Assembly: GCA_028275505.1 (NCBI GenBank)
Contig: JAPWUP010000008.1
Location: forward strand, 1-47,520
Reading direction: 5' to 3'
Origin: Bryobacteraceae bacterium
GTDB taxonomy: Bacteria > Acidobacteriota > Terriglobia > Bryobacterales > Bryobacteraceae
DNA length: 47,520 bases
The position numbers were made by a program, and so were the translations under genes. The notes beneath the pieces were generated by a model. It ran no database searches. It was given only the letters and a program-made list of their open reading frames with translations, and had not been told where the DNA came from. Position 1 is the first letter of the stretch. The number at the start of each line of letters is the position of its first letter. Shown here in pieces: positions 24,749-46,568 of the stretch.

Positions 24749-24875
24749 CGTCCAATGTGTCAGGATAACCGACGGGGACCGGGCCGGGCGAGAGGCGCCC
24801 GGGCCGCGCTAAACTCATGGATTCGGGCCGGACATTTCGGTCCCGGCGCGGCCCTTTACTTCAGGGAGAAGCAGG

Positions 24876-26984
24876 ATGCGCGCACGGTTGGGTTTGCTGG
24901 CTGGCGCGTTGAGTGCGCTGGCGTTTCAGGGACAGCCGCCGATGAAACCACCGGTAGCCAAAGTGATTCCCCACAAGCTCGAGAAACACGGGCACGTTCG
25001 GATCGACAATTACTACTGGCTGCGCGAACGGGACAATCCTGAGGTCCTGAAGTACCTGGAGGAGGAAAACCGTTACACGGAAGCGGTCATGGCCCACACG
25101 GCTGCCTTGCAGGAACGCCTTTTCCAGGAATTCCGGACGCGGATCAAGCAGACGGACATTTCGGTCCCGTATCTGCGCGATGGTTATTACTATTACACGC
25201 GGACCGAGGAAGGCAAGGAATATCCGATCTACTGCCGCAAGAAGGGTTCGCTGGAGGCGCCGGAAGAAATCCTGGTGGACGTCAACGAAGTAGCGCGCGG
25301 GCACAAGTTCTGCTCGGTGACACGCCCGGCGGTCAGCACCAACAATAACCTGATTGCGTACGCCGTGGATACCGTGGGCCGGCGGATTTACACCTTGTAT
25401 TTCAAGAACCTCGCCACCGGAGAATTGTTGCCCGACCGGATTCCCCAAGTGACCGGCAACGTGGTCTGGGCCAACGACAACCGGACCGTGTTCTATGCGC
25501 GGCAGCATCCGACCACGCTCAGGTCCTACCAGATCTACCGGCATGTTCTTGGGACGGATCCCGCCCGTGATGACCTGGTGTTCGAGGAGAAAGACGAAAC
25601 ATTCCGGTGCTTCGTCACCAAGACCAAATCCAAGCGCTACATCATGATCGCCTCCACGCAAACTTTGAGCACGGAGTACCGGCTGTTGGAGGCGGACAAT
25701 GCGCAGAGCCAGTTCCGGGTCTTCCTGCCGCGCGAACGCAACCACGAATACGAAATCGAACACTACGGCGATCACTTCTACATCCGGACCAACTGGAAGG
25801 CACGGAACTTCCGGCTGATGAAGACGCCGGTGGCGCGGACGGGCAAGGAAAACTGGCAGGAGGTGATCCCTCACCGCGACGACGTCTTGCTCCAGGATTT
25901 CGAGATCTTCCGCGACCACTTGGTGGCAGTGGAGCGCAAGGACGGGCTGACGCGGCTGCGGATCATGCCATGGAGCGGGAAGGGTGAACATTACGTGGAT
26001 TTTGGTGAGCCAGCCTACCTGGCTTTCCCCACGGATAACTACGAGTTCGATACGCCGCTTTTGCGCTTCACTTACAGTTCGCTGACGACGCCGACTTCGG
26101 TCTACGACTACAACATGAACACCCGGCAGAGGACGCTGCTCAAGCGGGAGGAGGTGCTGGGCGGTTTCGATCCGGCGAACTATCAGGCGGAGCGGGTTTA
26201 CGCCCCCGCGCCCGACGGCGTGCGCGTTCCCATTTCGCTGGTCTATCGCAAGGGTTTCCGCAAGGACGGCTCGCATCCATTGCTGCTTTACGGCTACGGC
26301 TCCTACGGCAACAGCACGGAGGCCTCGTTCAACCCCTTCCGGATCAGCCTGCTCGATCGCGGGTTCGTGTACGCCATTGCGCACGTGCGCGGAGGCCAGG
26401 AGCTGGGCCGGCAGTGGTACGAGGACGGCAAGTTACTCAAGAAAAAGAACACCTTCACGGATTTCATAGCTTGCGCGGAGTATCTGATCCGCGAGAAATA
26501 TGCCGACCCGAAGCGGGTTTTCGCGCAAGGCGCGAGCGCCGGAGGCCTGCTCATGGGCGCGGTGGTCAACATGCGACCGGATCTGTTCCGCGGCGTGATC
26601 GCGGGGGTGCCCTTCGTGGACGTGGTCACCACCATGCTGGATGAAAGCATACCGCTGACCACGAACGAGTACGACGAGTGGGGGAACCCCAACGACAAGA
26701 AGTATTACGATTACATGCTGTCTTACTCGCCGTATGATCAGGTGGAGCGCAAAGCTTACCCGAACCTGCTGGTCACCACGGCGTTTCACGATTCCCAGGT
26801 CCAATACTGGGAACCCGCCAAGTGGGTGGCGAAGCTGCGGGCCATGAAGACCGACAATAACTGGCTACTGCTGAAGACCCGCATGGACGCCGGGCACGGG
26901 GGCGCCTCGGGTCGTTACCAGCGCTACCGCGAGATCGCGTTCGAGTACGCGTTCCTGCTCGACCTGGCCGGGATCAAGGAATAG
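24876..26984 (+). CDS. Exported prolyl-oligopeptidase family peptidase, oligopeptidase B-like (S9A)
   Basis: A 702-aa serine peptidase. A short hydrophobic N-terminus (MRARLGLLAGALSALAF) suggests export to the periplasm, unlike the cytoplasmic OpdB of E. coli. The propeller domain begins with HGHVRIDNYYWLRERDNPEV, a typical S9A entry. The alpha/beta-hydrolase domain has the nucleophile Ser554 in GASAGG, Asp639 in FHDSQVQYWEP and His674 in DAGHGG. EYDEWGNPND supplies the acidic residues typical of oligopeptidase B, which cleaves after Arg or Lys in short peptides. The ribosome-binding site AGGGAGAAGCAGG precedes the ATG. It converges with the DUF1080 gene with 8 nt between stops. Confidence 0.9.
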   Translation: MRARLGLLAGALSALAFQGQPPMKPPVAKVIPHKLEKHGHVRIDNYYWLRERDNPEVLKYLEEENRYTEAVMAHTAALQERLFQEFRTRIKQTDISVPYLRDGYYYYTRTEEGKEYPIYCRKKGSLEAPEEILVDVNEVARGHKFCSVTRPAVSTNNNLIAYAVDTVGRRIYTLYFKNLATGELLPDRIPQVTGNVVWANDNRTVFYARQHPTTLRSYQIYRHVLGTDPARDDLVFEEKDETFRCFVTKTKSKRYIMIASTQTLSTEYRLLEADNAQSQFRVFLPRERNHEYEIEHYGDHFYIRTNWKARNFRLMKTPVARTGKENWQEVIPHRDDVLLQDFEIFRDHLVAVERKDGLTRLRIMPWSGKGEHYVDFGEPAYLAFPTDNYEFDTPLLRFTYSSLTTPTSVYDYNMNTRQRTLLKREEVLGGFDPANYQAERVYAPAPDGVRVPISLVYRKGFRKDGSHPLLLYGYGSYGNSTEASFNPFRISLLDRGFVYAIAHVRGGQELGRQWYEDGKLLKKKNTFTDFIACAEYLIREKYADPKRVFAQGASAGGLLMGAVVNMRPDLFRGVIAGVPFVDVVTTMLDESIPLTTNEYDEWGNPNDKKYYDYMLSYSPYDQVERKAYPNLLVTTAFHDSQVQYWEPAKWVAKLRAMKTDNNWLLLKTRMDAGHGGASGRYQRYREIAFEYAFLLDLAGIKE

Positions 26985-27631: not shown

Positions 27632-29014
27632 TCACGTGGTTCTTCGGGGCAGAGCGCCCGGCGTGTACGGGGATCCGCCCCGACGTCGCGTCTCTTCGTA
27701 GTCTTTCCGGATCGGTTCGGGAAAGCCGGCCATCAACCGCTCGATGCGGTTTTGAATTTCCGCCACGATTTTGGGATTTTCCGGAGCCACGTCGTAACTC
27801 TCGTCCGGGTCGTTGAGCAAGTCGTATAACTCCGGGGGATCCACGGGAAAGTTTTGCCTGCCGCCGGGGGGCGCCGGATTGTAGGCGAAGGTGTTGTAGC
27901 GGGCTACGTGGAGTTTCCAGCGGCCCCATCGCGCGCATTGCAGGTGAATGTTGTCAAAGTACAGCAGCACCTCCCGCTCCAGTTCCTGGCGCTGACCGCT
28001 GAGGATAGGCCAGATATCAATGCCGTCCAGGGGCTTGGGTGGCGGCGGAGCGCCGGCCAGCTTGAGGAAAGTGGGCACGATGTCCATCATCGAGGTCAGC
28101 GCGTTCGACACGCGGCCTTTCGGGATGCGTCCGGGCCAGCGAGCGAGGAAGGGAACGCGCACGCCGCCTTCCCAGGTGCTGCCCTTGCGACCACGCAACC
28201 GGCCAGGGCTGCCCTGATACCACGGCCCGTTATCGCTGGAAAACAGCACCAGCGTCCTGTCTTCCAGGCCCAGTTGCTTGAGCGCGCCCAGCACCTCGCC
28301 CACGCTCCAGTCAATTTCTTCGACTACGTCGCCGTAGAGGCCGAGCGGGGAGCGCCCTCGGAAACGCGGCGAGGCGTGGAGCGGGATATGGGGAAAAGTG
28401 TGAGCGAAATAGAGGAAGAAAGGCGAATCTTTGGCTTCCCGCAAGAAGCGGAGCGCATGCTCGGTGTAACGCTGGGTCAGGGTTTCCTGGCGCGCCGGCT
28501 CTTCCACCGTCTCGGTGTTATGCAATAGCGGGGTGGGTTTCATGTCGTTGCTGTACGGGATGCCGAAATACTCGTCGAAGCCGCGGTTGGTGGGCAGAAA
28601 CTCGGGCAGGTGCCCGAGATGCCATTTGCCGATGCACATCGTCTTGTAACCCAGCGGCTTCAACATTTCCGCCAGGGTAAGTTCGTCCTTGGGCAACCCG
28701 GTGGTGTCCTTGGGATTGAGGACGCGGGGCACGCCCACGCGAGTCGGGTAGCGCCCGGTGAGCAGGGAGGCGCGCGAAGGCGAGCAAACCGGGTTGGCGG
28801 AAATGTGTTGCATGAAGCGCATGCCTTCGGCGGCCATGCGGTCGAGGTTCGGGGTTCGGATGCGCGAGCCGTAGCAGCCCAGGTCTCCGTAGCCCAGGTC
28901 GTCGCAGAAAATGATCACGAGGTTGGGAAGCTGGGCGGCGCTGGATGCAAGCGATGAGAGGCTCCAGCCCGCGCCTGCGGCCAGGAATGCGCGGCGGGTC
29001 AGCGAATCCTTCAT
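27632..29014 (-). CDS. Tat-exported sulfatase
   Basis: A type I sulfatase of 460 aa from the ATG at 29012-29014, chosen because it opens a Tat-type signal ([20 protein letters not shown]); the frame is open to 29059, and neither start has a clear ribosome-binding site. Metal-binding Asp38-Asp39 lie in [16 protein letters not shown]. The maturation motif [16 protein letters not shown] starts at Cys77, which a formylglycine-generating enzyme would convert to formylglycine. Other conserved parts are [26 protein letters not shown] and LFSSDNGPW. It would remove sulfate esters from carbohydrates in the periplasm or at the surface. The N-terminus diverges from ribBA with only 57 nt between start codons. 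Confidence 0.93.
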
Positions 29015-29071
29015 GTCACGTGATGATAGCAAAGCGACGGCAGGAGTGGGACCGTACAATAGGAGTCAGAT

Positions 29072-30199
29072 ATGCCCTTCGCCACGATTCCCGAGGCCCT
29101 CGAGGAGCTGCGCGCCGGACGCATGCTGGTCGTCGTGGACGACGAGGATCGGGAAAACGAAGGCGACCTGACCTGTGCGGCGGAAAAGGTCACTCCGGAG
29201 ATCATCAACTTCATGGCCACGTACGGGCGAGGCCTGATCTGCCTGGCTCTCACTCCGGAGCGTTGCGATGAACTGGGACTTTCGCTGATCGCGCCGCAAA
29301 ACACGTCGCGTTTCGGGACGGCCTTCTGCGAGAGCATTGATGCGCGGGAAGGCGTGACCACGGGGATTTCGGCCCACGATCGCGCGCACACGATTCGTGT
29401 GGCGATTGATCCGCGCACGCGGCCGCAGGATCTGGCGCGGCCGGGTCACGTTTTTCCGCTGCGGGCGCGTCCCGGCGGGGTCCTGGTGCGCGCAGGGCAG
29501 ACGGAAGCCGCGGTGGATCTGGCGCGGCTGGCGGGATTGACGCCCGCCGGCGTCATCTGCGAAATCATGAATCCCGATGGCACGATGGCCCGCCTGCCCC
29601 AACTGGAGGAATTCTGCGCGCGCCACAACCTGAAGCTGGTCTCGGTGGCCGATCTCATTCGTTACCGGCTGCAACACGAGCGTTTCATCCGGCGCGTCGC
29701 GGAAGGGGTTTTGCCGACCGAGTTCGGCGAGTTCCGCACCATCGTGTACGCCACTTCGATTGACCCGGAAACGCACGTGGCCCTGGTGCGCGGCGAGGTA
29801 CGCGGGCGGGAAGGCGTGCTGGTGCGCATGCATTCGCGCTGCCTCTATGGCGACGTTTTCGCTTCCACGGCGTGCGATTGCCATCGCATCATACGCGCCT
29901 CGCTGGAGCGGATCTCGCAGGAGGGCTGCGGCGTTCTCGTTTACCTGCACCAGACCGGCCCCGGCATTCGGATCGAGGGCCGCGAGGGAGAAGTGGGAAG
30001 GCTGGAAACCCACTCGCGCGATTCGGCCCGCTATGCTACGCGGGACGGCCAGCGGTTGCTGCAGTACGAAGTCGGCATCGGGGCGCAAATTCTCTCCGAT
30101 CTGGGCTTGCACACGATCCGGCTGCTCACCAACCATCCGCGGCGGATCGCGGGTTTGGAAGGGTTCGGGATCCGCGTCGTCGAACAGGTTGCCGTGTAG
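29072..30199 (+). CDS. ribBA: RibBA-like protein: intact DHBP synthase fused to a degenerate GTP cyclohydrolase II domain
   Basis: A 375-aa two-domain riboflavin protein with ribosome-binding site AGGAG. Residues 1-200 are a complete 3,4-dihydroxy-2-butanone-4-phosphate synthase: [68 protein letters not shown]. Residues 205-375 resemble GTP cyclohydrolase II and keep its three zinc cysteines (257, 268, 270). However, the catalytic RQEGRxIG motif reads HQTGPGIR (Glu to Thr295, Arg to Pro297), and the regions holding E. coli Tyr105 and Arg128 show no equivalent Tyr or Arg. The end ([20 protein letters not shown]) is normal. I expect only the RibB activity to remain, as in the RibBX proteins described in Proteobacteria. 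A TACAAT box at 29056-29061 may be the promoter -10. Confidence 0.9.
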
Positions 30200-30208
30200 G
30201 TTTTCGAG

Positions 30209-30226
30209 CCGGGACGTCGTCCCCGG
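30209..30226. terminator. Short hairpin between convergent ribBA and DUF5107 genes
   Basis: CCGGGAC (30209-30215) can pair with GTCCCCGG (30219-30226) with one bulged C and a 3-nt loop, 10 nt after the ribBA stop. It may help end transcripts of both convergent genes. No U-tract is present and the stem is short. Confidence 0.35.
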
Positions 30227-30236
30227 ATAACTCACC

Positions 30237-33200
30237 TCAGCGGCGCAGTTCTGCCAGTTGGGTCCTGGCGCCCAGATGATCAGGCATGTAACGGACCGCG
30301 GCTTCGAACTCCTGTCGCGCCTTGTCCGTTTCCGCCAGGCCCAGATGGCCCAGGCCTTTCAGGTAATGGGCGCCGGCCAGACGGCTGCGCTGCGATTGTT
30401 GTTCGCCGAAGGAAGCGAAGAAGTCAATCTCGGCCGAGGTCTGCTGCAAGGTCTGCGTGGCGCTGCGCACCAGCTCCTCGTAAATCTGACGTGCCTGCTG
30501 CGTCTGGCCCAACTTTTCGAGGGCGCGAGCTCGGTAGTAACTCTGGACTGCAAGCGGGCTGCCGGCTCGGGCAAGCCTCGAATCTGCGGCGGCGGCGGCT
30601 TTTTGCCAGTGTTCGCGGGCCTTTGACGACTCGCCGAGCGCCTCCCAGGCCAGGCCTATCCAGTAGTGGATCTCGGCCTCGCGCGATTCGCCAAAGCGCC
30701 GTTCGGCCGGCAGGTTGTCGGGAACGGCCAGCGCCGTCTCGTAGTCGCGCAGGGCCTCACGATAGCGACCCGCAGCCCTGTGCTGGTGGCCGCGCAACAG
30801 GTGAGCGTCGGTCCAGTCGTCGGCGACGCGGAGCGAACCGCCCTCCCAGACTGAGAAACGCCGTCCGCTCATGAGCCGGATGGCCTCGTCGTACTTGCCC
30901 AGCACCACCTTCAGAGTGATCTCGCGCGCCAGGGCATCGTCCCGCTCGGCCACCACATCGTGGTTGCGCTCGAGCACTGCCAGCCGTTTCTCGGGATCCA
31001 AGCCGGCGGCCTCGTAGAGGGCATCCAGTTCGGCGAAATGCAGGGCGTGCTTTTGGGGTAGCGAGATCGCCTTCTCCAGCCAGGCGATGGCGCGCTTGAG
31101 GTCGCTTCCCCTGGCCGCCCTTGCGTAAGCGATCCCCAGGTTGCGCAGCACAATGGGGAAGGAGCCGTCCAGTGCGGCGGACTTTTCCCATAACTGGACG
31201 GCCCGCTCGGGTTGCCAGTCATAGAGCAGGTTACCCAGATAGTAAGGTGCGCGGGCGTCGCGCGGATTGCGTTCCATAGCTCGCCCGAGTATGTCAATGA
31301 CCTCGTGCTGGAAGGGGAAGACATAGTCGGGCGCGGCTTTCTCCGCCAGGTCGTAATAGCGCCCGGCTTGATCCGTCTGCCCGAGTTTTTCGGCAAAGTA
31401 ACCCAGGTAGTAATAAACCAGCGGCGAGACTTTGCCTTTCTCGGAGGCTTCCAGCTCCGAAAGCAGCCGCGCTCCCTCGGACCACAGTCCGGCGTTCGCG
31501 TATTCAGCGGCGGTTTCCAGCGCGGTCGCGGGATGGGCGCGCATGACGTCCACTAGCTCCCTGCGCGCCTCGGCCGAGCCGCTGGCGAGCCAGTGTTCGG
31601 CCATGAGGCGAACGTCGAGAGGATCGGTCCGCCGGAAGGCCTCCGTCACCACGGCCAGGGCGTCCTCAGGGCGTCCGCGCAGCCGCAGCAGGGAGGCCTT
31701 CAGGCCCAGTGCGCGGACGTTCAGAGCGTTGGCCTCCAAGGCACGTTCCGTGAAATCGAGCGCGGCCGCGTGATCGCCGCGGGCTGCGGCAATCTCGGCC
31801 AGGCAGTAATAAGCGGGGCCCCGCCACGCCATGCTCCAGGTAGCACGGTAGCATTCGGTGAAGGCTTCCTCGAGCCGGCCCTGAGCTTTCAAAGCGAGGC
31901 CCAGATAGTAAATGGGCTCGGCGTCTTTCGGCGTGGTGTATCGGTCTGTGGCCCGTTCCAGGGCTTTGCGGAACAACCGCTCCGCGTCCGCATAGCGGGC
32001 TTTCTTGAGATAGTTGATGCCCAGCGCGGTGTTCACGCGCACGTCGCCCGGATCGCGCCGCAACGCTTCTTCCCAGTAAGGATCGGGATCGAGACTGGGA
32101 TGATGGAACTGTTCGATGCGCAGGCCAGTGAGGTAGAGTTCCTCGTTGGTCTTGATCTGCTCGGGCGGCGGCGGGGGCTCGACCGGCTTGGGCATGGGTT
32201 GGGGAGTGACGCGAACCGGGGAGTAGCTGATCAGTTCGCGGCCGCCGACGGAGAGGGAGGCGCGCAGACTGTACTCGTCGGTGCCCGGCGGCAGCTCGAT
32301 CTCGCGCCGGTAAGGCTGCGCGGGGCTGATGGCAACGGTCTCGCGCAACAGTGCCTTGCCCGCAGCGGTGAGCGAGACAGTAGCTGCGGGATGGGCGGCG
32401 GGAGTGTAAAAGCCCAGGCGCGCACGACCGCCCGTTACCTCCAGATTGACCGCCGCCTCGAGATTGGCGTTCTTGACGCCACCGATTTCGCGGAACGGAT
32501 ACCAATACATCGAGAAGGATTTGGTTTCGAAGGGCTGGAGCCAGCTATAGTCCGGCTGATTGTCGGAGTACGCGCCAACCATCAGTTCGATGTAGGGGCC
32601 ATCGTCATCGGTCAGGATCTTGTCCCACATGCGGCCGCGCGGCCCGGTTCCCCAAGTCCACAGTTTCTTGCCGGGGACGATGTGATGGTCGGCCACGCTG
32701 ATGATGCCGGCCTGCTTGCCGTGGTCATAGCCGGCGAAGAAGTCGTCTTCGTAATTCCAGGCGAAGATGGAGTTGGAGGCGACGTGGTTCTTGTACCAAC
32801 TCACGTCCACGCCGCGGGAGAAATCGGCGCCGCCATAGCGTTCGCGCGCGATGGGCCATCGGATGAACTCACGCTTGTGGTGGTGGGTTCCCCACTGGGT
32901 CCGTGGCGGGAAAATGATCTGATAATTCTCGTTCACATGGACAGCCACGTTGGCCCAGCAGAGCATGGTCTGGACGAAGGGAGTACGGTTGAGAATGCGA
33001 ATCTTCGCTTCCAGGTGAGCCCTTCCCGGGTGCAGCGTGTAACCCACCGCCCAGCGCATGCGGTGGCGGATCTCCAGCTCGCCCACCCACACCGTCTTGC
33101 TGCCATCGGGATTGCTTTCGATCCGGTACTGTACGGGGAGAACCGTGGTGGCGCGGTGATGATGAGGGATGTTCCACTCGATGCCGCCCGAAATCCAGGC

Positions 33201-33593
33201 CCCGATGAGGCCGATCAGGGCGGGCTTGATCACATGCTGCCTGTAAATGAAGTGATAATTGTTGGTTTTGTCTATAGCCTCGAACAGGCGGCCTCCCAGT
33301 TCCGGCACGATGCCCAGGCGAACGTACTCGTTTTCCAGATAGACGATCCTGTAAGTCTTGTCGGTCTTTCGGTAAGTCAGGCGGTCGTACAACGGATAAG
33401 GATAAACACGGCCTTCGGCCCCCTGGGAGGCGCGACCGAAGAAAAAGATGGGATTGGGTTCGGGCGGACCGATCAGGTAGGTGGGAACGACCAAATCTTG
33501 TTCCCAGACTTTAACCGCGGTTTGCGCCGCAGCCGGTGCAGGGCGCAGGATCGCGATCGCCAGAAGCATGAACCACGAACGCCACGTGCGCAT
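30237..33593 (-). CDS. Exported DUF5107 - TPR protein
   Basis: From the ATG at 33591-33593 (ribosome-binding site GGGAGGT), a 1118-aa protein with a signal peptide (MRTWRSWFMLLAIAILRPAP, cleavage after AAAQ). Residues about 70-400 match DUF5107, a beta-rich domain of the galactose-mutarotase-like class (VPELGGRLFEAIDKTNNYHF, GGIEWNIPHHHRATT, NRTPFVQTMLCWANVAVHVN, PFRCEIGG-like YPFREIGG). Residues about 520-1118 hold many TPR units (NTALGINYLKKARYADAERL, YYLGLALKAQGRLEEAF). The combination suggests a periplasmic carbohydrate-binding or epimerase-like head on a protein-interaction scaffold. It starts 19 nt after the glycosidase-like gene and is presumably its operon partner. Exact substrate unknown. 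Confidence 0.88.
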   Translation of the reverse strand: MRTWRSWFMLLAIAILRPAPAAAQTAVKVWEQDLVVPTYLIGPPEPNPIFFFGRASQGAEGRVYPYPLYDRLTYRKTDKTYRIVYLENEYVRLGIVPELGGRLFEAIDKTNNYHFIYRQHVIKPALIGLIGAWISGGIEWNIPHHHRATTVLPVQYRIESNPDGSKTVWVGELEIRHRMRWAVGYTLHPGRAHLEAKIRILNRTPFVQTMLCWANVAVHVNENYQIIFPPRTQWGTHHHKREFIRWPIARERYGGADFSRGVDVSWYKNHVASNSIFAWNYEDDFFAGYDHGKQAGIISVADHHIVPGKKLWTWGTGPRGRMWDKILTDDDGPYIELMVGAYSDNQPDYSWLQPFETKSFSMYWYPFREIGGVKNANLEAAVNLEVTGGRARLGFYTPAAHPAATVSLTAAGKALLRETVAISPAQPYRREIELPPGTDEYSLRASLSVGGRELISYSPVRVTPQPMPKPVEPPPPPEQIKTNEELYLTGLRIEQFHHPSLDPDPYWEEALRRDPGDVRVNTALGINYLKKARYADAERLFRKALERATDRYTTPKDAEPIYYLGLALKAQGRLEEAFTECYRATWSMAWRGPAYYCLAEIAAARGDHAAALDFTERALEANALNVRALGLKASLLRLRGRPEDALAVVTEAFRRTDPLDVRLMAEHWLASGSAEARRELVDVMRAHPATALETAAEYANAGLWSEGARLLSELEASEKGKVSPLVYYYLGYFAEKLGQTDQAGRYYDLAEKAAPDYVFPFQHEVIDILGRAMERNPRDARAPYYLGNLLYDWQPERAVQLWEKSAALDGSFPIVLRNLGIAYARAARGSDLKRAIAWLEKAISLPQKHALHFAELDALYEAAGLDPEKRLAVLERNHDVVAERDDALAREITLKVVLGKYDEAIRLMSGRRFSVWEGGSLRVADDWTDAHLLRGHQHRAAGRYREALRDYETALAVPDNLPAERRFGESREAEIHYWIGLAWEALGESSKAREHWQKAAAAADSRLARAGSPLAVQSYYRARALEKLGQTQQARQIYEELVRSATQTLQQTSAEIDFFASFGEQQSQRSRLAGAHYLKGLGHLGLAETDKARQEFEAAVRYMPDHLGARTQLAELRR

Positions 33594-33612
33594 GGTGACC
33601 TCCCGGGTTAGT

Positions 33613-35475
33613 TCAGCGGATCTGGGCTTTCTGGCTGAAGGGCGGCTCCTTGCCGGAGTGCACCGCCAGGAGCCGGCGGTGGGTAGCTTTGGCAGCCTCG
33701 ACAAGCTCGACATAGGGCCGATCGGTTACATCCACCAGACCGATGTTATAATTTTCGCCGTCCATGCGGCCGGTGGCGGGCTGGTCCACCCACTGGAACC
33801 AGTGCGTGCCGATGAGGGCCGGGTGGGCGGCCGCGTTCTCCACGTAGTAGCGGTAGGCGACGCCGCGTTCCTGCTGGTCGCGTGTCTGGCGCAATCCCGC
33901 CGCCAGTCCTCGCCCGGGCGTCCCGAAGTGAAATTCGCCGATGATGACAGGCCGCCCGGTCAATTGATAAATGTGATCGAGCAGCGCGGGATCGGGCACG
34001 TAGTCGTAGACGTTGTGACTGTAAACATCGAAGACGCGCGCGGCGCGAATCGCTTCCTCCGGCGGCCGGCCCCCGAAACGTATGCCGAGATTGAGGTGAT
34101 TCGGATCGTACTTGCGGATCGCCGCATTTACGGTTTCCAGGAACTTCTCGAAGCAGCGATACACGAAGGTGCGGCGGCGTTCGGGAGTATCTCCTGCGGC
34201 AAGGAACTCTTTCAGCGCGCGTTGGGTCGCAGTGGGCGGGCCGGAAAGCAGCATCTCCACGAGTAACTGCTCACGGCCCGGCCATGGCGGTTCATTGGCT
34301 ACGAAGTAACCGAGAACGTAAGGATCGTTTTTACGCGGGGCGCACTGTTCGGCAGCAGCTTTGTCCACCTGCTGTGCCCATTCGGCCGAAAAGACGTCCG
34401 GCATGCCCAGGGGCCCGGTCTCGATTCCCCACCCGCGCAGCGTAACCACGTAAGGGACGCGCTGCGCAGCCCCGAGTCTCGGATCGGACCAGTTCGCAAC
34501 GGTGTTGAAGCCCCAGGCCTGCATGCGCCGGAGCGTGAGCTCCACCCATTTTTGAGGCCAATCGTCGCCAAAGCGCCGCAGCAGATTCCACGTATAGAAA
34601 GAAACCTGGGTCGAGCGGACGCCGCCGCGTGCCGGAGGTCGCAGTTCCTCCGGCGGCAAAGCGGCAAAAATTGTCTGGCGGCCTTCGACGCGCGTGCCCG
34701 AGTAGGGCGTGATCACATCCACGCCTGCGGAAAAGAATAAGTGGCCGTCAGGATCCACGAACCACCACCGTCCGTCAATTTGCTCCACGCGGAAAAATCC
34801 CGTGGCTTTGGCTTTCGTGTTGCGGTAACCGCCGTAACGGCAGTACTCGAAATCGCCGGCGCGGAGCGTGGCTTCCTCCGCCGCCCATTCCTTGCGCAGT
34901 TGCGCGAGGCTGGTCGCTTTGCCGGGCCATTGCGCCGGAATCCACTGGCCGAACTCGTCCACGACGGGTCCGGGGTCCAGGACGGCATCACCCGGGTCAT
35001 CCTTGGCCAGACGCACCGAGCGGATCTCCAAGGTCGGCTGGCCGACCGGATCCTGCATCGCCACACCCAGGCCTTCCACGTTTTTCAGGGATCCCACAGG
35101 CCCGGAGGCGCTGATCCAGAACGTACCGCGCGGCTTGTTGCCCAGCGACGCCAGATCATGGCCCTCGCGCTCCACCCGCGCGTAATAGCGCAGGGGAACG
35201 GCGGCCCGGATCCATACGCCGGAAAACGGGTGGATGCGGCGGCCCAGCGTGCGCTCGGCAGTATGGATGCGCAACTCGAAGCGTTGCGGCGAGGAGGCTT
35301 TCATTTCCAGCACCAGAAATTCAAAGCCCGACCAATCCGAAGGCAGCGCCGGGTCAATCTCTTTGAGCGACCACCGATGCTCGGAGAGGGCGCCTTCGAA
35401 TACCACGCGCAACGGACCTGCATGGGCAGCCTGCGCAAGAACGGCCAGCGCGATGATCAAGAAGGGTCTCGACAT
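33613..35475 (-). CDS. Exported clan GH-A-like glycoside hydrolase (agarase-like)
   Basis: I set the start at the ATG 35473-35475 because it opens a signal peptide (MSRPFLIIALAVLAQAAHAG); the frame is open 500 nt further but that part is antisense to the glycine-rich gene. The 620-aa product has an N-terminal beta-rich carbohydrate-binding-like region (about 20-190), then a TIM-barrel segment beginning RVEQIDGRWWFVDPDGHLFF. The candidate acid/base is Glu395 in GYFVANEPPW and the candidate nucleophile Glu514 in RPVIIGEFHFG, the Asn-Glu-Pro and strand-7 Glu pattern of clan GH-A and beta-agarase-type enzymes. The substrate (galactan, agar-like or other) cannot be told. The ribosome-binding site is weak. 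It heads an operon with the DUF5107-TPR gene. Confidence 0.85.
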   Translation of the reverse strand: MSRPFLIIALAVLAQAAHAGPLRVVFEGALSEHRWSLKEIDPALPSDWSGFEFLVLEMKASSPQRFELRIHTAERTLGRRIHPFSGVWIRAAVPLRYYARVEREGHDLASLGNKPRGTFWISASGPVGSLKNVEGLGVAMQDPVGQPTLEIRSVRLAKDDPGDAVLDPGPVVDEFGQWIPAQWPGKATSLAQLRKEWAAEEATLRAGDFEYCRYGGYRNTKAKATGFFRVEQIDGRWWFVDPDGHLFFSAGVDVITPYSGTRVEGRQTIFAALPPEELRPPARGGVRSTQVSFYTWNLLRRFGDDWPQKWVELTLRRMQAWGFNTVANWSDPRLGAAQRVPYVVTLRGWGIETGPLGMPDVFSAEWAQQVDKAAAEQCAPRKNDPYVLGYFVANEPPWPGREQLLVEMLLSGPPTATQRALKEFLAAGDTPERRRTFVYRCFEKFLETVNAAIRKYDPNHLNLGIRFGGRPPEEAIRAARVFDVYSHNVYDYVPDPALLDHIYQLTGRPVIIGEFHFGTPGRGLAAGLRQTRDQQERGVAYRYYVENAAAHPALIGTHWFQWVDQPATGRMDGENYNIGLVDVTDRPYVELVEAAKATHRRLLAVHSGKEPPFSQKAQIR

Positions 35476-35536
35476 GGCGTCATCTATTGAACCACCGCCG
35501 GAGGCCGTCCGGGTAGAGCCGCCCGGTTCGCCGCGC

Positions 35537-35565
35537 TTGCGCTCGGGATTGCGCAGGCGTATGCT
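35537..35565 (+). promoter_or_regulatory. Candidate sigma70-type promoter of the glycine-rich protein gene
   Basis: TTGCGC (35537-35542) and TATGCT (35560-35565) are separated by 17 nt, 28 nt before the ATG at 35594. The gene also has a perfect AGGAGG at 35582-35587. The hexamers each differ from consensus at two positions. Confidence 0.45.
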
Positions 35566-35593
35566 TTGATAAACAGACCATAGGAGGTTCCCC

Positions 35594-36361
35594 ATGCGAA
35601 GGTCATTATTCACTGTCCTGATTGTGCTCGGGCTGGGCGCCTGGGTGCTGAGCGCGGCCGAGTTTTGGGAAAAGAAGAAATTCTCAGAGTGGACCGAGAA
35701 GGAGGTCCGCAAGATCCTGAGCGATTCGCCTTGGTGCCGGCCTGTCGAGATCCGTCTCGACACAGCGGGTGGGGCACGGATGGCCGGGGGCGGCGGTAGA
35801 GGCCGAAGAGGCGGCGGGGGCGGCGGTGGTTTCGCGGACGCGTCCACGGGCAGCATGGGCGGGACGGACGAGAGCATGGGCGGCGGGATGGGCCGCGGGG
35901 CCGGTAGCATGTCCATGCCTGAAGCGGCGCCCACCATCACGGTGTACGTGCGCTGGCGGACGGCCTTGCCGGTCAAGCAGGCGCTGGTCCGTGCGCGCTT
36001 CGGCGATGAGGCCGCTACCTCGCCCGACGCCGCGAAGTTCCTCTCCGCCCAGGAAACCCATCACATCATCGAGATCGCGGGCATTCCCATGCCGATGCTG
36101 CGCATCAAGCCCGATCAGCTCAAAGCCGGCGCTCAGCTCCGCATCAAGGACAAGCCGCCGATTCAAGCCGTGGACCTGAAGGCGGGGCGCGAAGAGAATC
36201 GCGTGAACCTCTACCTGATCTTTCCGCGAGAGCAGAACGGCACGCCTGTGATCGCTCTGGAAGACAAGGAAGTGGAGGTCTTCCTGAAGGCCGGCCCGCT
36301 GGACATTCGCCGCAAGTTCCGGCTCAAGGACATGATCTTCGAGGGCAAGCTGGAGATCTGA
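35594..36361 (+). CDS. Secreted protein with glycine-rich low-complexity insert, function unknown
   Basis: A 255-aa protein with a strong ribosome-binding site (AGGAGG, 6-nt spacing) and a signal peptide (MRRSLFTVLIVLGLGAWVLS). The mature N-terminus FWEKKKFSEWTEKEVRKILS, followed by DSPW, resembles a segment I associate with GWxTD-type or 'EWTEKE' secreted acidobacterial proteins. Residues about 62-110 are almost only Gly, Arg, Ser, Met and Ala (GGGGRGRRGGGGGGG, GGTDESMGGGMGRGAGSMSM), a flexible linker. Residues 115-255 form a predicted beta-rich domain (ITVYVRWRTALPVKQALVR, VNLYLIFPREQNG, IRRKFRLKDMIFEGKLEI). It is divergent from the glycosidase operon. I do not recognise a function; secretion and the two-part layout are clear. 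Confidence 0.8.
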   Translation: MRRSLFTVLIVLGLGAWVLSAAEFWEKKKFSEWTEKEVRKILSDSPWCRPVEIRLDTAGGARMAGGGGRGRRGGGGGGGFADASTGSMGGTDESMGGGMGRGAGSMSMPEAAPTITVYVRWRTALPVKQALVRARFGDEAATSPDAAKFLSAQETHHIIEIAGIPMPMLRIKPDQLKAGAQLRIKDKPPIQAVDLKAGREENRVNLYLIFPREQNGTPVIALEDKEVEVFLKAGPLDIRRKFRLKDMIFEGKLEI

Positions 36362-42831: not shown

Positions 42832-44289
42832 ATGGGACAACTTTCCCGTCGCACGTTCCTGCAATCGGCGGCGCTGGCGTCCGCCCAGTCGCCCGCTGCG
42901 CCCCGCATGATCGGCATTCAGATTGGCGCCGTGTCTTTTCTGGACGAAGGCGTCGAACCGGTGCTCGACATTCTGCAACAGAAGGCCGCCATCAACACCC
43001 TTTTCGTGGCGACTTTCACTTACGGGCGCGGAATCGCCGGACGGCAGGTGCCCGGCCAGCCCTTGCCCGATCACGGCAAGCAGGAGTACGACCTGGATTT
43101 CCGCGGCGGATGTTTCACCCGCATGCGACCCGAGTTTTACCGCGATACCGTGCTCAAGGATGTGCGTTCCCGCGATTACGGCGATTACGACGTGCTCGAG
43201 GCTGTTCTTCCCGCCGCCCATCGCCGCGGTTTGAAGGTTTTCTGCTGGTACGAGGACGTGTGGCGTAACGACGTCCCCGGCATCGAAAAAGTGCAGGAAG
43301 TGGATCTTTACGGCCGCCGCGGTTCACGCACTTGCCTGAACAACCCGGATCATCGCGCCTTCCTGGCCGCTATTGCCGAGGACTGGACACGCAGTTACCC
43401 GATTGACGGCATCATGTGGGGATCGGAGCGGCACGGCGCGCTCGGCCTGGCGCTGGGCGCCAGTCACGGCGGGCGCTCCAGCGATCCTTCCCGCGTCGGC
43501 TGCTTCTGCACTTACTGCGAACGCAAGGCCCGCGAGCGCGGCCTCGACCCTGCCCGCGCCAGGGAAGGCTTCCGCACCCTCGAGCAGTTCGTGCGCGCGG
43601 CCCGCTCCGGGCAGCGGCCCGTGGACGGTTACTTCGTGCAGTTTCTGCGAATTCTCATGCGGTACCCGGAGATTCTAGCCTGGGAGCAGCTTTTCCACGA
43701 CAGTCTGCGGGAATGCTACCGGCTGATTTACGATCGCGTGAAATCCGCGAGGCGCTCGGTCCTGGTGGGCTGGCATATCTGGCACAACAATTCGTTCAGT
43801 CCTTTCTATCGCGCCCAGCAGGATCTGCGCCAGCTCGTCCCCTGCTCGGACTTTCTGAAAATTGTCATGTATCATAACTGCGCGGGCGAACGCATGGCCA
43901 GTTACATAGACAGCGTCCAGCAACACATTTTCGGCGACATGAGCAAGCAGGAGGCCCTCGATTTTCACTACCGCGTCATGAATTTCGCCGAGGGAACTTA
44001 CGAGCGCATCCCCTTTACCGGTTTCTCGGCGGATTACGTTTTCCGGGAAACGCAACGCGCGCTCCGGGCCGTGGAGGGGACTCCGACCCGCATCTGGCCG
44101 GGCATTGACATTGACATTCCCACGGCGCTGGAACATTCGCGCTCCACGCCCGAGGGAACACGGGCGGCCGTCCTGGCCGCTCTCCGCGCCGGTGCCCACG
44201 GCGTTCTGCTTTCGCGCAAGTATTCGGAAATGCGGCTGGCAAATCTGGCGGCGGCGGGCGAGGCCATCCGGGAGTTCGGGGCCGCCTGA
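42832..44289 (+). CDS. Tat-exported putative glycoside-hydrolase-like protein 1, with CxCxxC motif
   Basis: A 485-aa protein with ribosome-binding site GGAGG and a Tat signal (GQLSRRTFLQSAALASAQ). The rest looks like an (alpha/beta)8-barrel: AINTLFVATFTYGRG, RGLKVFCWYEDVWRN, YPIDGIMWGSERHGALGLAL and SVLVGWHIWHNNSFSPFYRA. The motif CFCTYCERKA around residue 224 has three closely spaced cysteines (C-x-C-x-x-C), shared with the next protein. Glu in GIMWGSERHG is a candidate catalytic or ligand residue. I do not recognise a named family; similar uncharacterised proteins occur in Acidobacteria and Planctomycetes. It ends 14 nt before the next start, so the pair is an operon, likely acting on a common carbohydrate outside the cytoplasm. 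Confidence 0.75.
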   Translation: MGQLSRRTFLQSAALASAQSPAAPRMIGIQIGAVSFLDEGVEPVLDILQQKAAINTLFVATFTYGRGIAGRQVPGQPLPDHGKQEYDLDFRGGCFTRMRPEFYRDTVLKDVRSRDYGDYDVLEAVLPAAHRRGLKVFCWYEDVWRNDVPGIEKVQEVDLYGRRGSRTCLNNPDHRAFLAAIAEDWTRSYPIDGIMWGSERHGALGLALGASHGGRSSDPSRVGCFCTYCERKARERGLDPARAREGFRTLEQFVRAARSGQRPVDGYFVQFLRILMRYPEILAWEQLFHDSLRECYRLIYDRVKSARRSVLVGWHIWHNNSFSPFYRAQQDLRQLVPCSDFLKIVMYHNCAGERMASYIDSVQQHIFGDMSKQEALDFHYRVMNFAEGTYERIPFTGFSADYVFRETQRALRAVEGTPTRIWPGIDIDIPTALEHSRSTPEGTRAAVLAALRAGAHGVLLSRKYSEMRLANLAAAGEAIREFGAA

Positions 44290-44303
44290 GGAGGCGTGCG
44301 GCG

Positions 44304-46568
44304 ATGTCGCGTAGCTTGCTGCCCCCTGTTCTTACGCGCCGCGCCTTTCTCGGGTCCGCCGCCGTGGCGCTGTCCGGCGCTCGTTCTTCCGGCGAGCCCT
44401 GGTACCGCCGGGTCTATCGCTGGGGCCAGACCAACATCACGGAAAAGGACCCGGAGCGTTACGACATCGAATGGTGGCGTCGCCATTGGAAACGCACCGC
44501 CGTGCAGGCCGTGATCATCAATGCCGGCGGCATCGTGGCTTACTATCCCAGTAAGTTTCCCTTGCATTACCGGGCCCGTTTTCTGGGCGGTCGCGATTTG
44601 TTCGGCGAACTCGTCGAGGCGGCGCACCGTGACGGCATTTACGTCATGGCGCGCATGGATTCCAGCCGCGCCAGCGAAGAATTTTTCCGGGCTCACCCCG
44701 ACTGGTTTGCGCGCGACCGCCAGGGCAATCCCTATCGTGCGGGGGATCGCTATCTGGCCTGCATCAACAGCCCTTACTTCGAAGAGTATCTTCCCGGCGT
44801 CCTCGTCGAAATCATCGAGCGCTATCATCCCGATGGTTTCACGGACAACAGTTGGGCTGGCCTGGGCCGCGACAGCATTTGTTACTGTACTTACTGCGAG
44901 CGTTCCTTTCGCGCGGCTACCGGTCTGGCGCTGCCCGAGCGGCACGACTGGGACGATCCGGCCTTCCGGCGCTGGATCTTGTGGAGTTACCGCCGGCGGC
45001 TGGAAATCTGGGATCTGAACAATCGCACTACGCAATCGGCTGGCGGGCCGGAGTGTATCTGGTCGGGAATGCTCAGCGGCTCGCTTTCCGGTCTGGCTCG
45101 CAGCTTTCGCGATCTGCGCGAAATCGCCCGCCGGGCGCACATTCTCATGCTCGATCACCAGCGGCGCGAGGACGACCTCGGTTTTCCACAGAACGGCGAT
45201 CTCGGCAAGCGCATCCACGAGCTGGCGGGCTGGGACAAACTGGCGCCGGAGAGCATGGCCATGTACCAGAACCATCCGGGCTACTTCCGCGTGACGAGCA
45301 AAACGCCGGCCGAGGCCCGGCTGTGGATGATCGCGGGCATCGCGGGCGGCATCCAGCCGTGGTGGCACTACGTGGGCGCCTACCACGAGGACCGCCGCAT
45401 GTACCGCACGCCGGAGCCGGTCATGAACTGGGTCCGCGAGAACCAGGAGTTTCTGGTCCGGCGCGAGCCGGTGGCTTCGGTGGGGTTGGTGTGGTCCCAG
45501 CGCAACGCGGATTTCTTCGGGCGGGATCAGGCAGCGGACCGGGTGGAAGCGCCGTACTACGGCTTCATGCACGTCCTGGTGCGGGCGCGCATCCCCTATT
45601 TGCCGGTGCACGTGGATGACATCCCGGCCGGTCCCGAGCGCTTCGCCGTGCTCATTCTGCCCAACCTCGGTTCGCTCAGCGACGCGCAGTGCGAGGCGAT
45701 TCGCCGGTACGTGAAGGCAGGCGGCTCGCTCGTGGCTACCGGCGCCACTTCGCTTTATGACGAATGGGGCGATCCGCGCCCGGATTACGCGCTGGCGGAC
45801 GTGTTCGGCGCCCATCTCGATTCGGCCGCGCCGCGATTGCCCGCAATGCGCACAGCGACTGCCGGCCCGCCGGCGGACGAGCACACTTATTTGCGCCTGC
45901 ATCCGCAGTGGCGCGCGCGGGTTGACGGCCCCAAGGCCGGGGATGAGCCCGCCCCGACCGGTTCGCGGCACGTTGTTCTGAACGGCTTCGAAGAGACCGA
46001 TCTGATCCCCTACGGCGGAAATCTCCTGCCTCACCGCTTCGCCGCCGGCGCGATCGTGCCGCTGACCTTCGTGCCGGCGTTCCCCACCTATCCGCCAGAG
46101 TTCGCGTGGATGCGCACTGCCGACAGCGGCCTGCCCGCGCTGGTTTTGAGCGAGCGCGGGCGCTCGCGCATCGCCTTCCTGCCCGCGGATCTGGACCGGC
46201 GTTACTTCCGCCAGCACCTGCCCGATCACGCACGGCTGCTCGAAAACCTGGTGCGCTGGTGCGCCGGCGATTCGATTCCGCTGGCCGTCGAGGGACCAGG
46301 CCTGCTCGATTGCCACCTGTATCGCCAGCCTGGCCGCTGGATCCTCCACATCGTCAACCTGACCAACCCCGGGGCCTGGCGCGCGCCTGTTGAAGAGTTG
46401 TATCCGGTGGGGCCTCTGCGCGTTTCGATCCGGGTGGGGGACGGCGGGGCGCCGCGGCGCGCCATGGCTCGTGTGGCAGGCCGCTCGTTGCCGCTGAGGC
46501 GGCGCGATAGCTGGGTGCGAGTGGAACTGTCATCCGTGCTCGATCACGAAATGATCGTGCTCGAGTGA
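44304..46568 (+). CDS. Tat-exported putative glycoside hydrolase 2 (GH42-like layout), with CxCxxC motif
   Basis: A 754-aa protein with ribosome-binding site GAGGAGG and a Tat signal (LTRRAFLGSAAVALSG). Residues about 30-390 resemble a TIM barrel of the hypothetical-glycosidase type (DGIYVMARMDSSRASEEFFR, HPDGFTDNSWAGLGRDSICY), with the cysteine motif ICYCTYCERSF at about 190-200. Residues about 410-560 resemble a beta-galactosidase trimerisation domain (FAVLILPNLGSLSDAQCEA, RRYVKAGGSLVATGATSLYD). A C-terminal beta-domain follows. The layout is like GH42 relatives. The substrate and the catalytic acid pair are unclear. It is convergent with udk, 11 nt apart. Confidence 0.8.
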   Translation: MSRSLLPPVLTRRAFLGSAAVALSGARSSGEPWYRRVYRWGQTNITEKDPERYDIEWWRRHWKRTAVQAVIINAGGIVAYYPSKFPLHYRARFLGGRDLFGELVEAAHRDGIYVMARMDSSRASEEFFRAHPDWFARDRQGNPYRAGDRYLACINSPYFEEYLPGVLVEIIERYHPDGFTDNSWAGLGRDSICYCTYCERSFRAATGLALPERHDWDDPAFRRWILWSYRRRLEIWDLNNRTTQSAGGPECIWSGMLSGSLSGLARSFRDLREIARRAHILMLDHQRREDDLGFPQNGDLGKRIHELAGWDKLAPESMAMYQNHPGYFRVTSKTPAEARLWMIAGIAGGIQPWWHYVGAYHEDRRMYRTPEPVMNWVRENQEFLVRREPVASVGLVWSQRNADFFGRDQAADRVEAPYYGFMHVLVRARIPYLPVHVDDIPAGPERFAVLILPNLGSLSDAQCEAIRRYVKAGGSLVATGATSLYDEWGDPRPDYALADVFGAHLDSAAPRLPAMRTATAGPPADEHTYLRLHPQWRARVDGPKAGDEPAPTGSRHVVLNGFEETDLIPYGGNLLPHRFAAGAIVPLTFVPAFPTYPPEFAWMRTADSGLPALVLSERGRSRIAFLPADLDRRYFRQHLPDHARLLENLVRWCAGDSIPLAVEGPGLLDCHLYRQPGRWILHIVNLTNPGAWRAPVEELYPVGPLRVSIRVGDGGAPRRAMARVAGRSLPLRRRDSWVRVELSSVLDHEMIVLE

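Follow-up and report, generated by a model that had tools for sequence, protein, structure and literature searches.

Two adjacent proteins with twin-arginine signals, glycoside hydrolase folds and a probable structural metal site in a Bryobacteraceae genome

What do two adjacent genes encode when both products carry an export signal and the same cysteine-rich motif? We addressed this question for a gene pair in a 47,520-nucleotide stretch from a Bryobacteraceae bacterium (GenBank assembly GCA_028275505.1, contig JAPWUP010000008.1, positions 1 to 47,520; hereafter, the window), and we refer to the products as P1 and P2. The two open reading frames (ORFs) are intact, co-directional and 14 bp apart, and a GGAGG-like purine-rich stretch precedes each start. 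With a probability of about 0.67, we read them as an operon-encoded pair of proteins of glycoside hydrolase (GH) fold that are exported by the twin-arginine translocation (Tat) route, are each stabilized by a structural zinc and act jointly on a glycoside. The fold and the zinc-type site are known already; the pair and the altered active site of P2 are uncharacterised, and the P1 family is unnamed. Our literature search found no paper on these proteins, and the closest relative of P1 comes from an uncultured Bryobacteraceae (L002, 83%).

42832..44289, plus strand: P1, a 485-aa single-domain (beta/alpha)8 protein with a Tat signal and no Pfam family above its cut-off
44304..46568, plus strand: P2, a 754-aa GHL6/GH151-like three-domain protein with a Tat signal

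An earlier note on this DNA had pointed to a C-[FY]-C-T-Y-C-E-R motif shared by the two proteins, and this observation held. The motif occurs once per protein, as CFCTYCER in P1 and CYCTYCER in P2, and a six-frame search of the window for the pattern C.C.YC.R gives exactly two hits, at 43501 and 44880. When the residues of both proteins were shuffled, none of 20000 trials produced CxCxxC in both. The motif lies in a region of homology between P1 and P2 (BLASTP 6e-5; hhalign 97.9%), so that its sharing reflects common descent. The same note had singled out three cysteines; all three are conserved, but the conserved set is four, as a further cysteine lies 56 residues upstream of the motif in P1 and 40 residues upstream in P2.

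43333..43335, plus strand: P1 Cys168, within C-L-N-N-P and past an extra strand; putative fourth zinc ligand
43501..43518, plus strand: P1 Cys224-x-Cys226-x-x-Cys229
44760..44762, plus strand: P2 Cys153, the fourth putative zinc ligand, in C-I-N-S-P
44880..44897, plus strand: P2 Cys193-x-Cys195-x-x-Cys198

Conservation across the family, which the earlier note had proposed to check, was read from two alignments that each include the window: A1, with 85 P1 rows after omission of three fragments shorter than 440 aa, and A2, with 45 P2 rows. C168, C224, C226 and C229 are invariant in 85/85 rows of A1, and C153, C193, C195 and C198 in 45/45 rows of A2; no other cysteine is invariant in either, C350 of P1 being present in 72/85 rows and C463 of P2 in 22 of 23 rows. 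A wider set of 110 P1 rows combined 22 diverged rows, the window among them, with 88 others. The diverged rows include some repeats (L163 is the plasmid of L155, and L156 holds the L059 genes). Among the 88 others, C168 is replaced once, by Gly (Cys in 87/88).

All four cysteines of both proteins have aligned counterparts in a zinc-type GH42 protein, namely its CxCxxC and upstream Cys (L121; hhalign probability 82.9 for P1 and 98.6 for P2), and those of P2 also align with the solved structures 6tvk (GH151) and 3tts (GH42). The site is thus the known GH42/GH151 cysteine cluster, and its novelty is not supported. According to the available text of PMC8573354, the same four cysteines are the zinc ligands in a homology model of the GH42 enzyme Gal42, whose activity and stability were raised by zinc; that text also states, citing Maksimainen 2012, that the zinc of a related enzyme lies outside the catalytic cycle, and that the cluster is not universal in the family. 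We found the cluster in 1/13 GH42 proteins picked by pattern from 30 loci.

How the site is lost in distant relatives bears on its role. Among the 22 diverged P1 rows, 20 hold Cys or His at all four places and two have lost the whole set; C229 has become His in three (two Parabacteroides genes and L159). Thirteen P2-family relatives were obtained from plasmids (from 15 coding sequences, after L175_17853 and L178_15850 were dropped for lack of a BLAST match to P2); nine retain all four cysteines and four have none. N182, Q286, R288 and D363 of P2 are retained in 13/13; at position 284, 11 have Asp and two have Glu. Because the cysteines are kept or lost as a set while the pocket residues stay, we read the site as structural, and set-wise loss together with a Cys-to-His swap is what would be expected of a dispensable tetrahedral metal site. 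Judged from these alignments, the four cysteines most likely form a structural metal site of the GH42/GH151 type, and the bound metal would be zinc. A catalytic metal, or a redox or iron-sulfur centre, would fit a Cys-rich motif in the loop after strand 4 of proteins with Tat signals, and the earlier note had offered a metal site or a redox cluster. The first of these is likely; a catalytic or redox function is probably not what the site provides, and we regard it as highly improbable in view of the set-less relatives that keep their pockets and the structural zinc reported for the GH42 counterpart. As an observation for future use, the relatives L175, L176, L177 and L178 lack all four cysteines and L179 and L180, of like operon, retain them, which amounts to a natural experiment on the metal site. 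The signature C-x-[NS]-x-P followed by CxCxx[CH] may also serve to find related barrels that Pfam cut-offs miss.

Disulfide bonds that stabilize an exported protein are another possible use of four cysteines, and both proteins do carry Tat signals. The Tat assignment of the earlier note was borne out: an S/T-R-R-x-F-L motif stands at each N-terminus, and the twin arginine is kept in at least 98% of P1 relatives and at least 90% of P2 relatives. The Pfam TAT_signal model matches 25/85 A1 members at E <= 0.01, and the P1 of the window at only 0.1. By motif, P1 and P2 are therefore predicted Tat substrates.

42844..42864, plus strand: P1 Tat motif SRRTFLQ, residues 5-11, with conserved RR
44334..44354, plus strand: P2 Tat motif TRRAFLG, residues 11-17

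However, five of the nine four-Cys plasmid relatives (L172, L174, L179, L180 and L183) show no evident signal peptide when their N-termini are read by eye, which makes disulfides unlikely. Additionally, one cysteine position is His in 3/22 diverged rows, and the four cysteines disappear all at once, not pairwise. We therefore consider disulfides very improbable and retain the structural metal site.

The hydrolase-type fold suggested by the earlier note was supported for both proteins, whose models match structures of glycoside hydrolase fold. The note had left hydrolase or lyase open; judging from the modelled fold, a glycoside hydrolase would be more likely and a lyase less so. For P1, the nearest Pfam models are GHL10 (PF02638; 19.1 bits against a cut-off of 27.9) and GHL6 (PF14871; 14.4 bits), and GHL10 matches 74/85 A1 members at E <= 0.01. 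NCBIfam gave no match for P1 or P2. A search of solved structures with the P1 sequence found none, and the P1 profile reached E 0.18 at best. The AlphaFold model of P1 (mean predicted local distance difference test, pLDDT, 92.6) is one (beta/alpha)8 barrel, and the closest solved folds are Cwp19 (Z 26.7, 307 aligned residues, root-mean-square deviation (rmsd) 3.1), PgaB (24.8) and 6tvk (24.1, 296 aligned), the last two being tied. The PgaB barrel is presumably GH153. P1 is thus an unnamed family of known fold: the GHL10/Cwp19 and PgaB barrels are its closest folds, but it stays under the GHL10 cut-off.

Two carboxylates at or near strand ends are candidates for the P1 active site.

43426..43428, plus strand: P1 Glu199, candidate catalytic acid/base, two residues past beta-strand 4 (strand 193-197), in 110/110 rows
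44107..44109, plus strand: P1 Asp426, which ends strand 7 and is a candidate for the second catalytic carboxylate

D38, E39 and H81 are likewise present in 110/110 rows; K343 and Y347 are conserved throughout the 107 rows without a gap there, and E466 in 105/106. Before Glu199 stands Ser198 in the window and Asn in 6/22 diverged rows, an Asn-Glu pair reminiscent of GH42; the hhalign alignment of P1 to GH42 has a gap at Ser198-Glu199. For GH156 and Cwp19, the parts of the published descriptions available gave no residue match to P1. In that text, Cwp19 carries Asp196 close to strand 4 and has Gly328 in strand 7 (PMC5765458), unlike P1.

P2 is easier to place. It matches GHL6 at 81 bits (cut-off 35), a model that is itself named hypothetical and for which P1 falls below the threshold. 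It also passes the Glyco_hydro_42 cut-off, with a trimerisation-domain match slightly under its cut-off and GHL10 (14.6 bits) below. A profile built from P2 recovers the GH151 alpha-L-fucosidase 6tvk at 3e-27, over three stretches, followed by GH42 enzymes. The AlphaFold model of P2 (pLDDT 89.3) superposes lengthwise on 6tvk, with Z 32.2, 626 aligned residues, rmsd 3.1 and 17% identity, ahead of PgaB (27.4, barrel only) and the GH42 structure 5e9a (25.6, the next full-length match). P2 therefore shares with the GH151 enzyme of Paenibacillus thiaminolyticus (6tvk) a three-domain fold, the four cysteines and profile homology, and differs in its Tat signal and in the residue at the nucleophile place. 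GH42 enzymes (3tts, 1kwg) have the four-Cys site at the same places as P1 and P2 and a three-domain layout similar to that of P2, whereas P1 is a barrel alone.

In the part available to us of a review, the key residues of GH151 are the nucleophile Asp154 (end of strand 4), the acid/base Glu235 (strand 6) and His503 from the neighbouring monomer, and monomers show active-site complementation (PMC10154630). P2 departs from this scheme.

44847..44849, plus strand: P2 Asn182, which the 6tvk alignment sets opposite the GH151 nucleophile Asp154; Asn in 45/45 A2 rows and 13/13 plasmid relatives
45153..45167, plus strand: P2 D284-H-Q286-R-R288 after strand 6, candidate active-site residues; D284, Q286 and R288 each in 45/45 A2 rows

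Asn182 aligns with Asp183 of the deposited chain, which we equated to Asp154 through an inferred 29-residue offset. Where GH42 has its acid/base Glu, P2 has Ser183, a variable residue, giving Asn182-Ser183 against the Asn-Glu of GH42. D363 and R365 are also invariant (45/45). The sequence alignment of P2 to 6tvk ends before the place of Glu235, for which Asp284 is a candidate, and residues 225-407 of P2, searched separately, gave no alignment to that place either. Around the strand-7 nucleophile Glu of GH42, the P2 alignment is ambiguous; P1 has its Asp426 at the strand-7 end. Two GHL6 paralogues with CxCxxC in the same genome have Asp (L114) and Asn (L113) at the Asp154 place, and a third (L115) lacks CxCxxC; relatives of L114 occur in 2/120 other genomes of its class. 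Because Asn182 and Ser183 occupy the GH151 nucleophile and GH42 acid/base places, P2, as far as its sequence tells, falls outside the canonical GH151 and GH42 enzymes, and would work by another mechanism or be inactive.

The same two substitutions make an ordinary GH151 alpha-L-fucosidase or GH42 beta-galactosidase very unlikely for P2, in spite of a fold and three domains that match 6tvk and 3tts and a P2 relative of Sinorhizobium B11 that lies near alpha-L-fucosidase and GH95 genes. Alternatively, P2 may be a dead GH151-like subunit that binds the substrate or complements the P1 active site. Asn in the nucleophile place in every A2 row and the complementation between GH151 monomers speak for this, but D284, Q286, R288, D363 and R365 are invariant in A2, and P2 relatives stand on 42 plasmid records against two for P1, both from other organisms, in a count that covered plasmids but not the chromosomes of those hosts. 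We hold a dead subunit to be rather unlikely, and favour joint action of the two proteins.

Are the two genes a pair elsewhere? We took the best 80 of 129 P1 loci from a search of genome contigs, some with short flanks. A P2-family gene is present in 22/80, as an immediate neighbour in 20 (same strand in 17/20), in both orders. The P2 family accounts for 20/151 immediate neighbours of P1 and 3/540 genes farther out (Fisher 2e-11, in a test that ignores relatedness). On a quick tree of the 80 P1 rows, the pairing label changes at least 10 times, with 8 changes forced by starred branches. When 297 genomes were drawn evenly across the phylum, 12 had P1 (E <= 1e-20), 17 had P2 (E <= 1e-40) and 6 had both, that of the window included. 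In the same-genus genome G001, a broken P1 lies beside an intact P2 (L119, G001:C190, ~24751-26088), unless this is an assembly error. The pairing is not obligate.

Taken together, we propose the following putative mechanism. One operon would give rise to P1 and P2, related Tat-exported proteins of glycoside hydrolase fold. In each, one Cys past the extra strand between strands 3 and 4 and three in the loop after strand 4 would form a zinc site, and the single zinc would pin the loops beside the active site as in GH42 beta-galactosidases, stabilizing the fold and taking no part in the chemistry. Metal-dependent folding ahead of export would be consistent with the Tat route. Catalysis would take place at the C-terminal face of the barrel, in P1 most likely with Glu199 as acid/base and Asp426, or Glu39 or Glu466, as second carboxylate, and in P2, if active, by a route other than that of GH151, with Asp284, Gln286 and Arg288 as candidates. 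P1 and P2 would act jointly outside the cytoplasm on a glycoside, whose breakdown perhaps feeds glycerate, hydroxypyruvate or glyoxylate metabolism.

The last step comes from gene neighbourhoods, in which functions are annotation names. Twelve plasmid regions were picked by hand from the 42 records with P2 relatives. In Agrobacterium, Rhizobium, Neorhizobium and Martelella, the operon runs LacI regulator, ATP-binding cassette (ABC) transporter, P2, OtnI or Hyi, and 2-hydroxy-3-oxopropionate (tartronate semialdehyde) reductase, with a glycerate kinase added in A. vaccinii; a Roseinatronobacter record ends at the start of such an operon. In Sphingobium, two P2 relatives flank 2-hydroxy-3-oxopropionate reductase, hydroxypyruvate isomerase and glycerate 2-kinase. 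On Parabacteroides distasonis plasmid 56 (L154:6917-17370), two CxCxxH-bearing P1 relatives have SusC/SusD directly upstream and, downstream, a glycerate kinase and a permease that is annotated SLC13 and matches Pfam GntP. This locus has the appearance of a compact utilisation locus in Bacteroidota. The glycerate link is a lead, not a result. We tentatively entertain, as an unlikely reading, that P1 and P2 are parts of an undescribed pathway from a glycoside to glycerate or hydroxypyruvate, with P1 a new GH family and P2 a GH151-type body that works after its catalytic Asp became Asn. If the link is true, proteins now called hypothetical would gain a named function; in any case, the Parabacteroides and Rhizobium relatives hint at a substrate class for this uncharacterised exported pair of enzyme fold.

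Several findings weigh against the joint, zinc-stabilized glycoside hydrolase pair or its glycerate extension. The isomerase-reductase pair is present in 6/12 examined P2 regions, absent from five and incomplete in one. Among the 80 P1 loci of Acidobacteria, GlxR-like genes occur in two and a glycerate kinase in one, and the Parabacteroides glycerate kinase and permease have no match among 772 P1-neighbour ORFs. The four Cys-less P2 relatives all come from one Rhizobiaceae operon type, and their loss may be one event. D426 is Gly in 4/22 diverged P1 rows, and P2 may be a binding pseudoenzyme. Lastly, 58/80 P1 loci show no P2 gene, some having short flanks, and the 98% complete genome G003 has P1 with no P2 match at 1e-10.

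Another plasmid hinted at a different substrate. On Granulicella pACIX901 (L155), the surroundings of a P1 relative with 46% identity include proline racemase, dihydrodipicolinate synthase-family, oxidoreductase, GH127 and peptidase genes, a set that we take to suggest use of hydroxyproline glycoproteins. Extensin was set aside as a substrate, since the hydroxyproline-type and GH127 genes had no match among the P1-neighbour ORFs.

Regarding other genes of the window, the earlier note had placed an upstream SLOG gene in the operon. This gene is co-directional and ends 15 bp upstream of P1. None of the other 80 P1 loci has it, the flanks of some being short, and two stretches from the same genus, covering about 4 and 11.6 kb, also lack it upstream of P1; its membership is therefore not supported. 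The MEMO gene, the RodZ-like gene and seven others of the window likewise had no match in the 80 loci. TonB/Oar-type receptor genes are weakly enriched beside P1 (13/151 against 20/540, p 0.017). A Pfam scan of the nearest other gene on each side of P1 (genes of 150-900 aa; 101 listed and 97 scanned, with four contig-edge fragments omitted) gave 90 families; of the 25 families listed, the commonest were beta-helix (8) and DUF6282 (7).

A 771-aa open frame on the minus strand (44034-46349) lies antisense to P2 and is probably a high-G+C artefact, because the conservation in relatives is on the plus strand. At 27632-35976, sulfatase-like, DUF5107-like and glycoside-hydrolase-like genes were named by reading translations, with no search run, and a DUF1080-like gene stands immediately before them. 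In L033:1-9464, an IclR regulator, malate synthase, P2, an enolase-superfamily gene, P1, DUF6282 and P1 follow each other in one direction, and the order P1-DUF6282-P1 recurs in L042, L053 and L059.

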